Shown: one piece after another, positions 21,063 to 24,199 of the stretch
Position numbering within the stretch: position 1 is the first letter of the stretch
Layout: every line of letters begins with the position of its first letter
NCBI GenBank assembly: GCA_025458035.1
Contig: JALOTH010000043.1
Location: 1-38,209, forward strand
From: Rhodospirillales bacterium
Lineage (GTDB): Bacteria > Pseudomonadota > Alphaproteobacteria > Rhodospirillales > Defluviicoccaceae
Direction of reading: 5' to 3'
DNA: 38,209 nucleotides
Position numbers and translations under genes: made by a program
The notes under the pieces: generated by a model
What the model was told of the DNA's origin: nothing
Databases searched by the model: none
What the model saw: only the letters and a program-made list of their open reading frames with translations

Positions 21063-22667
21063 ATGGGCAATCACCTCTACTACGGCGATAACCTTGAGGT
21101 GCTGCAGCGATCGATCGCCGCCGAGAGCGTCGACCTGATCTATCTCGACCCGCCGTTCAACAGCAACGCCACCTACAACGTGCTGTTCAAGGCGCCGGGC
21201 GGCCAGCAGTCACAAGCACAGATCGAGGCGTTCGAGGACACCTGGCACTGGAACGAGACGGCGGAGCAGGCCTTCGACGAAGTGATGGCGAGCGGAAATT
21301 CCGATGCGGCGGAGATGCTGCGGGCGCTGCGCGCCTTCCTCGGCATCAACGACATGATGGCCTACCTGACGATGATGGCGGTGCGGCTGATCGAACTGCA
21401 CCGGGTGCTCAAACCGACGGGCAGCCTTTATCTGCACTGCGATCCCACCGCCAGCCATTACCTCAAAATTGTCCTGGATGCAGTGTTCGGTGTCCGTAAC
21501 TTCCTCAACGAAATCATCTGGCAGCGGACGAGTGCGCACTCCAGCGCGCATCGCTACGGGCCGATTCACGACGTGATATTCTATTACGCGAAATCAGATG
21601 ATTATTGTTGGACGGGGGCAACGCAGCCCTACAACCAGGATTACATCGAGGCGTTCTTCGTTCACCAGGACGCTGACGGCCGTCGCTGGCAGCGGGCCGA
21701 TCTGACCGGCGCCGGGGTTCGAAAGGGGGATTCGGGCAAGCCGTGGCGCGGCATCGACGTGACGGCGAAGAAGCGGCATTGGGCGGTTCCCCATGACGAG
21801 CTTGATCGGCTGGACGCCCTCGGCCGGCTACACTGGCCGGCGCGGGAAGGCGGCGTTCCTCAAAGAAAACGATACATCGACGAACTGCCCGGAATGCCTT
21901 TGCAGGACGTGATCACCGACATCAAACCGATCCATAACATCTCCAGAGAGCGCCTTGGCTATCCGACGCAGAAGCCGGTGGCGCTGTTGGAGCGGATCGT
22001 TGCCGCGTCGAGCAGCCCGGGCGATGTCGTCCTCGATCCCTTCTGCGGCTGCGGCACCACCATCCACGCGGCGGAAAAGCTCGGCCGCCGCTGGATCGGC
22101 ATCGACGTCACCCACCTTGCCATCTCGCTGATCGAAAACCGCCTCAACGACGCCTTCCCCGGCATCGAATACGAGGTGCACGGCACGCCGAAAGACCTCG
22201 ACGGCGCCCGCGCGCTGGCGGCGCGCGATAAGTATCAGTTTCAGTGGTGGGCGGTCTCGCTGGTCAAGGCGGTGCCCTACCGTGGTCAGAAGAAGGGCGC
22301 GGACGGCGGCGTCGATGGCCTGATCTGCTTCAAGCCCGACGGCAGGACGACGGAAAGGGCGATCGTCTCGGTGAAGGGCGGTGCCGGCGTCGGCGTCGCC
22401 GTGATCCGCGAACTGATGTCCGTCGTCGAACAGCAGAACGCGAAAATCGGCCTCCTCATCTCGCTGGCCGAACCGACGCCGGCGATGCGCAGCGAAGCCG
22501 CCGCGGCGGGAGCCTATACGACTGATTTCGGCAGCTATCCGAAGATCCAGATATTGACGATCGGCGAGCTGCTTGCGGGTTTCAGGCCGCAGATCCCGCT
22601 GGTTGACACGGCGGCTTTCCGTAAGGCGCTGCGGGAGGAGGGCGTACAATTCCAGATGAACCTTTAG
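21063..22667 (+). CDS. DNA methyltransferase (beta class) with nuclease-like C-terminal domain
   Basis: This 534-residue protein has the N6-adenine/N4-cytosine methyltransferase core in beta order: catalytic motif IV DPPF (29-32) first, target-recognition region in the middle (about 150-295), TQKP (302-305), then the AdoMet motif DPFCGCGTT (325-333). After about residue 385 a second domain follows: [19 protein letters not shown], then [10 protein letters not shown], and AIVSVKGG. The D418 ... S436-V-K438 spacing resembles a PD-(D/E)XK nuclease with Ser in place of the usual acid. No separate restriction gene is adjacent. It may be an orphan methyltransferase or a combined restriction-modification protein. 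It lies between nrdJ and the HD/ArgB frame, all co-directional. The methylase call is firm; the nuclease role is inferred. Confidence 0.88.
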
Positions 22668-22714
22668 CTTGCGGCAATCAGGCTTCGCCGCCGCTCCTCC
22701 TGCTGACCCGCGCC

Positions 22715-24199
22715 TTGCATTTTGCCGCCCGCAAGCACGTCGACCAACGGCGCAAAGGCGCGCGCGCCGAGCCCTATCTCAATCACCTCGCTGAGGTCGC
22801 TGGGCTGCTCGCCGAGGCAACGGCAGGCGCCGATCCCGAACTCATCGTTGCCGGCATCCTGCACGACGCGATCGAGGATACCGACGCCACAAAAGAGGAG
22901 ATCGCCAGGCAGTTCGGCGATGGTGTCGCCGCCCTCGTTGCCGAGGTGACCGACGACAAGCGTCTGCCGAAAGCCGAACGCAAACGCCGGCAAGTCGAAC
23001 GAGCACCGCTCGCCACGGCGCGCGCCAAGCAGCTCAAGCTGGCCGACAAGATTTCGAACCTCGAAGCGCTCCGCCTCAGCCCGCCCGCCGATTGGGCGCC
23101 CGACCGCTGCCGGGACTACGTGCGCTGGGCGGTCGACGTGGCCGCCGGCTGCGTCGGCGTCGATCCGTGGCTGGATGCCCGCTTCGAGACGGCGCGCATG
23201 GCCGCCGAGGCTGCGGTCGCCGCCCCCGGCCGTGGCGAGGGCATGATTTTGCGCTGGCATTCGGCGGCGCGCCCGGGTAATCCCGCCGTCATGAACGAAG
23301 ATCGGCTAAAGTCCCGCGCGGAGTGGCTGGAGCAGGCGCGCGTCCTCGTCGAGGCCCTGCCCTATATGCGCCGATACTCCGGTGCGACGTTCGTCATCAA
23401 GTACGGCGGCCACGCCATGGGCGACGGTGAGCGCGCTCGCGAGTTCGCCCGCGATATCGTGCTGCTGCGGCAGGTTGGCGTGAACCCGGTGGTGGTCCAT
23501 GGCGGCGGGCCGCAGATTGGCCGCATGCTGGAGCGGCTGAAGATCAAGAGCGAGTTCGTCGACGGCCTGCGTGTCACCGACAAGGACACCGTCGACGTCG
23601 TCGAGATGGTGCTCGCCGGCTCGATCAATAAGGAGATCGTCGCCGCCATCAATGCCGCCGGCGGCTTTGCCGTCGGCCTGTCGGGCAAGGATGGCAACCT
23701 GATGCGGGCGCAGCGGCTGCGGCGGACCAAGCGTGACCCTGGCTCCAACATCGAGCGGATCCTCGACCTTGGCCTCGTCGGCGAGCCTTCGGAGATCAAC
23801 CCGCACATCCTCGACTTCTATGAACGCTCCGACATTACGCCGGTCATCGCGCCGATCGGCGTCGGCCCCGCCGGGGAAACGCTCAACGTCAACGCCGACA
23901 CGGCGGCAGGCGCCATCGCCGCGGCGATCGGCGCGCAGCGGTTGATCCTGCTCACCGATGTCGACGGGGTGCTCGACGCCAAGGGAGAGCTGGTCGCCGA
24001 AATGACCGCCGCCGATGCCCGCCGCCTGATCGCCGAAGGGGTCATCACCGGCGGCATGATCCCGAAGATCGAAACCTGCCTCGAAGCGGTCGACCGCGGC
24101 GTCGAGGGTGCGGTTATCGTCGATGGCCGCGTGCCGCATGTGCTGCTGCTGGAGTTGTTCACCGAGCATGGCGCGGGAACACTGGTCAAAGCCAGCTGA
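22715..24199 (+). CDS. argB: HD hydrolase (MESH1/SpoT-like) domain in one frame with acetylglutamate kinase
   Basis: One uninterrupted frame of 494 residues joins two enzymes. Residues 1-165 are a metal-dependent HD hydrolase of the SpoT/MESH1 type: [10 protein letters not shown], then H24 (YLNH), H50-D51 with E54-D55 (LHDAIEDT), and D111 (KLADKISN). These spacings match the metal site of MESH1, which hydrolyses ppGpp or NADPH. A linker of about 27 residues follows. Residues 193-494 are a complete N-acetylglutamate kinase for arginine synthesis ([29 protein letters not shown]). A normal ArgB start exists at the ATG of 23291 (another ATG is at 23243), but its ribosome-binding site is weak. So either a fusion protein or two overlapping products is made. 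The HD start is uncertain: TTG 22715 or a rare codon upstream, since domain-like LLTRAL lies before it. Confidence 0.85.

Follow-up and report, generated by a model that had tools for sequence, protein, structure and literature searches.

The hydrolase and N-acetylglutamate kinase sequences that share one open frame in this DNA are best read as two ordinary genes brought head to tail in a single frame by a recent, lineage-specific apposition, in which translation of ArgB begins for the most part at its own ATG (23291); we give this reading a probability of about 0.55. The frame is on the plus strand of the window, by which we mean the whole stretch of 38,209 nucleotides analyzed, and comes from a draft assembly of 239 contigs that is 96% complete. 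It follows a TAA at 22622–22624 and is free of stops until 24197–24199. The original prediction of an uninterrupted run from the hydrolase into ArgB was borne out, in that a single translation of 22667–24196 contains both an HD_4 domain (Pfam, residues 16–141, E = 9.5e-20) and an AA_kinase domain (Pfam, residues 241–486, E = 6.3e-50). The open extent that it gave, 22625–24199, is also correct, but 22625 is merely where the open frame begins and is not a start codon; the earliest ATG, GTG, or TTG of the frame is the TTG at 22715, from which 494 amino acids can be read. The features discussed below are as follows.

22634..22642, plus strand: GGAGGAGGG, a hypothetical Shine-Dalgarno-like sequence within the end of the methyltransferase gene (sequence reading).
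22688..23221, plus strand: MESH1-type hydrolase domain, residues 8–185 of the translation of 22667–24196 (HD_4; PDB 3nr1, E = 2.7e-38; confident AlphaFold segment; divergence biased to third codon positions).
22715..22717, plus strand: TTG, the sole ATG, GTG, or TTG in frame between 22625 and 22759 (reading of the frame; AlphaFold helix).
23222..23290, plus strand: stop-free linker comprising the C-terminal end region of the hydrolase and the argB leader (low model confidence).
23243..23273, plus strand: upstream element of argB, inside the hydrolase frame, common to four same-genus genomes, with a common core at 23251–23263 (best local alignments with G001–G004).
23278..23283, plus strand: TAATCC, located where 18 of 29 relatives have a TANNNT box (hexamer comparison).
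23291..24199, plus strand: argB, N-acetylglutamate kinase of 302 amino acids with its own ATG (TIGR00761; aligned with the acetylglutamate kinase PDB 2buf over residues 8–300; 82% identity to G002 over residues 1–301).

The hydrolase is, as named from its structure matches, a Mesh1-type small alarmone hydrolase (SAH), and we have left Mesh1 and Mesh1-L undivided. The closest solved structures are 3nr1, which we take to be human MESH1, 5vxa (MESH1), and 3nqw (CG11900), presumably fly MESH1, with E values of 2.7e-38 to 2.4e-36; after this group the next match has an E value of 9.4e-19, and Rel enzymes appear from 6.1e-15. The metal site, which had been predicted to be complete at H24, H50-D51, E54-D55, and D111 (H40, H66-D67, E70-D71, and D127 when counted from 22667), is so: its residues are invariant in two alignments, of five and nine SAH relatives, and line up with their equivalents in 3nr1. 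In its HD_4 domain, its H, HD, ED, D metal site, and its body of ∼180 residues, the protein is like the Mesh1/Mesh1-L SAHs as described in the available portions of PMC3153485 and, for XccSAH, of PMC9765508, and as seen in 3nr1 and 5vxa. The Xanthomonas XccSAH hydrolyzes (p)ppGpp, pppApp, or NADPH, according to the available portion of PMC9765508; for the SAH of the window such activity is a prediction. When the whole frame was modeled with AlphaFold, confidence was high for the SAH; the ArgB part, modeled from an alignment without ArgB relatives, is unreliable, so that no conclusion on domain contacts can be drawn from it.

Within its family, the SAH was found in one of 11 genomes, its own, and was absent from the other 10 in a sequence search with the SAH at E ≤ 1e-17. 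At E ≤ 1e-30, with its own genome counted each time, it was found in 35 of 317 genomes of the order (6 of 115 genera), in 16 of 385 genomes of the class, and in 23 of 398 genomes of the phylum; the samples overlap, and in all four surveys the first pass scored only part of the candidates in many genomes. Genomes that were negative in the four surveys, which had the SAH alone as query, say nothing further about a fusion. The patchiness is shared with known Mesh1/Mesh1-L SAHs: in the available portion of Atkinson et al. 2011 (PMC3153485), small RSHs are described as sporadically spread and Mesh1/Mesh1-L as much transferred. The SAH gene of the window was probably acquired horizontally. An assignment as a phage or plasmid gene was rejected, the only matches being below 60% identity with none over 80% of the query, and PADLOC returned nothing for the SAH.

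The SAH gene is abnormal at both ends. Mesh1 SAHs are usually single-domain proteins with their own start and stop, but that of the window lacks both a canonical start and a stop ahead of argB and is not encoded as a stand-alone protein. Starts and stops were compared in 78 SAH loci of relatives, which represent 70 distinct proteins because some places were fetched twice and to which one set of 80 loci contributed only L076–L086. In all 78 an ATG, GTG, or TTG is present at position −12 to 16; in the window there is none in this interval, and the first is at position 17 (TTG 22715). Initiation at this codon would truncate the first modeled helix (residues 8–23) near its middle. The ATT at 22649, a putative rare start, and the CTG codons at 22700 and 22703 are possible starts of the SAH, and GGAGGAGGG sits 6 nt upstream of this ATT, which is in the SAH frame. 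At the other end, 65 of the 70 distinct relatives have their stop at query-equivalent residue 181–200, the same place at which the argB leader element starts here. The outlying stops are at 207, 225, 245, 300, and 7, the last of these (locus L211) resulting from a match whose start lies 5′ to an in-frame stop. Near the end point of the relatives the window has a TGA (23244–23246) that is one base out of the SAH frame.

The loss of a canonical start and of the stop, together with the lack of the SAH in the other family genomes, is what would be expected if the SAH were a decaying gene that merely lies upstream of argB. About 180 codons without an internal stop, the retention of every metal-site residue, and a divergence from five relatives that is mostly at the third codon position (0.46–0.55 versus 0.21–0.31, values that describe the whole branch and not recent history) argue against decay, which we consider very improbable.

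The ATG at 23291 belongs to ArgB itself, and the kinase is full length from there. Its score with the NCBIfam model TIGR00761 (argB) is 255.7 bits as compared with a cut-off of 151.3, so the full N-acetylglutamate kinase that had been predicted in this frame is confirmed. It is the same full-length kinase as other ArgB proteins (TIGR00761; 2buf), except that the frame here extends upstream into the SAH domain. No second full-length argB is present in the 96% complete assembly of this genome.

A sequence shared with the region upstream of argB in same-genus relatives lies inside the SAH frame. The 91 bases before argB in the same-genus genomes G001–G004 all align best (4/4) with window positions 23243–23273, and their scores were reached by 7, 5, 8, and 3 of 2000 shuffles, respectively. 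Nothing comparable was found in five more distant genomes, for which 146 to 1065 of 2000 shuffles reached the score. The element is located close to the usual end of the SAH in relatives. In 18 of 29 relatives, namely the genomes of the order with loci returned by the whole-frame search, a TANNNT box ends 6–9 nt before the argB ATG (shuffle mean 0.9, maximum 5 in 500); it is missing in 11, including the same-genus G004. This spacing suggests a transcript beginning at the ATG and thus a leaderless argB mRNA in these relatives. Leaderless transcripts have been reported for alphaproteobacteria including Zymomonas mobilis in the available portion of PMC7566282, and the sole literature match for a leaderless argB was a Bacillus methanolicus transcriptome, as far as the accessible part of that source goes.

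In the window the position of the box is occupied by TAATCC, and the TANNNT ending 6–9 nt before the ATG, by which the putative leaderless argB promoter of the order is defined, is missing. TAATCC scores −0.4 on a −10 matrix derived from the 18 box-bearing relatives. Scores of 3.0 to 11.2 were obtained for 21 of the 29 relatives, 18 of which are favored by having built the matrix, and seven relatives score below the window. A score as good as that of the window is reached by 61 of the 538 plus-strand ATGs of the window and by 159 of 1000 shuffles, and a generic sigma-70 scan found no promoter. Because the score of TAATCC is poor and so readily equaled, the argB promoter of the window may be weak or dead, and this is the main evidence against a simple two-gene reading; with a dead promoter, ArgB would be made mainly as a fusion. 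The relatives that have no box and the firmer shuffle results for the leader element pull the odds in opposite directions.

A fusion as the main product is the boldest reading that remains, because the −10 sequence is poor, no Shine-Dalgarno-like sequence was found upstream of the argB ATG at 23291, and no stop precedes that ATG. It would require a genuine bifunctional SAH-ArgB, initiated at a non-ATG codon (ATT 22649, CTG 22700/22703, or TTG 22715), to supply most or all of the ArgB. The lack of a stop that could permit re-initiation at the argB ATG, the intact state of both domains, the position of GGAGGAGGG ahead of the ATT, and the single full-length argB found in the genome are all in accord with such an enzyme, but it would have to start without the ATG, GTG, or TTG that all 78 SAH loci of relatives have at position −12 to 16, or else at a TTG that divides the first helix, and its linker, modeled with low confidence, contains the argB leader.

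Comparison with other genomes also speaks against it. The homologue search for the same domain order that had been proposed as a check was run with the whole frame as query at E ≤ 1e-10 on 60 genomes including its own, the only search to use this query: 56 of the 59 other genomes gave some match, and in none (0/59) did a single match span both domains. Similarly, argB was present in none of the 78 SAH loci of relatives (0/78), most of which had flanks of 1.5 kb and the others flanks of up to 5 kb or more, shorter at contig ends; five of the 34 other SAH matches in the order survey had no locus and were outside this check. A conserved bifunctional enzyme was rejected on these counts, as was an established SAH-ArgB fusion, which should recur with this domain order in one or more other genomes, and the proposed joining of ppGpp or NADPH turnover to arginine synthesis has no support from comparison of genomes. 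The literature searches returned no paper that pairs an acetylglutamate kinase fusion with an HD domain or N-acetylglutamate kinase with a small alarmone hydrolase. As judged by these sequence comparisons, there is no sign of selection keeping a joined enzyme. We regard it as unlikely that a bifunctional protein provides most or all of the ArgB, and we consider distinctly unlikely the specific proposal that the only ArgB of this strain is the fusion, with the SAH stop lost at the time when the leaderless argB promoter decayed.

The genes before argB in the window are nrdJ (TIGR02504), a methyltransferase, and the SAH gene, and argB is followed on its 3′ side by genes for a pyrimidine 5′-nucleotidase, dapD, and dapE, an order that is common to several relatives, partly with inserted DNA. 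In both G002 and G003, nrdJ and argB share a contig, separated by ∼160 kb; in the window they are near neighbors. This difference, the draft state of the assembly, the two abnormal ends of the SAH gene, and the out-of-frame TGA at 23244–23246 would fit a sequence or assembly artifact, in which the SAH stop is hidden by a chimeric join or by a small indel close to the end of the SAH. Chance out-of-frame stops are common, however, so the TGA is weak evidence, and nrdJ and ArgB on either side are complete and resemble those of the genus (identities to G002 of ∼81 and ∼82%, respectively); an artifact appears improbable to us.

A different gene occupies the place of the SAH in G002 and G003. There engB, named by TIGR03598 for G002, lies upstream in the frame of argB with a single TGA between them and no later stop before the argB ATG; in the present genome the engB match is on a separate contig (C21). 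The engB-argB junction thus resembles that of the window in having an upstream gene in the argB frame, a leader otherwise free of stops, and the shared leader element, but engB keeps its TGA and the SAH gene here is stopless. With engB in the argB frame and an open leader, an incoming gene in that frame need only lose its stop. An open in-frame leader is not rare, as at least 24 open codons precede the argB ATG in its frame in eight of the 29 relatives. The alternative in the original prediction, that argB starts within the frame of another gene, fits the data better than the fused enzyme does, and the arrangement is less strange than had been supposed.

For the apposition of two genes that we prefer, the following history can be proposed. 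A MESH1-type SAH gene, probably of horizontal origin, would have arrived directly upstream of argB, the leader of which by then probably contained no stop in the argB frame. The SAH gene would then have lost its own stop, merging the two frames. ArgB would be translated mostly from the ATG at 23291, as it seems to be in relatives from a leaderless mRNA, and ribosomes on the SAH frame would run on to give an SAH-ArgB read-through fusion as a presumably minor product.

Within NAGS/K, the partner of the kinase is an acetyltransferase. In yeast NAGK it is a C-terminal domain, as opposed to the HD hydrolase here, and an HD hydrolase as partner of ArgB was not found in the literature and genome searches made. 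Two known ArgB fusions, as described in the available portions of the papers, indicate that a covalently attached partner is compatible with the kinase domain: a bifunctional NAGS/K from Maricaulis maris (PMC3236213) and the NAGK of yeast, which carries a C-terminal domain (PMC3329491).

If the fusion is made, it pairs domains that were not found together in the searches here and would be a very young example of the origin of a gene fusion, in which an incoming gene and a leader open in frame are joined by one stop loss. If it is the only ArgB, the supply of ArgB would be tied, in a fixed 1:1 ratio, to translation of an alarmone/NADPH hydrolase, the enzyme made dependent in this way would be the control enzyme of the arginine pathway, and the locus would represent a fusion at birth. 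If it is not made, the case is a caution for annotation based on the longest frame, which would report one fusion of 494 residues in place of two genes.

Several further observations were made. The gene at 21063–22667 (plus strand), upstream of the SAH, encodes an N6/N4 DNA methyltransferase fused to an Mrr-like restriction domain. It has only partial matches, of ∼30% identity, in two of the other 10 family genomes and, among the matches listed, aligns with phage proteins at 46–47% over 96% of its length. A recurrent pairing with the SAH was considered and rejected, no such gene being present at E < 1e-20 in SAH loci L034–L155 (L053–L059 excluded). The TANNNT box in 18 of the 29 genomes of the order suggests that a leaderless argB is widely kept there. 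Short tandem repeats lie just upstream of argB in G012 (locus L040). In locus L075 (G241), the SAH has ∼110 extra residues after the domain and is possibly another fused or extended SAH.
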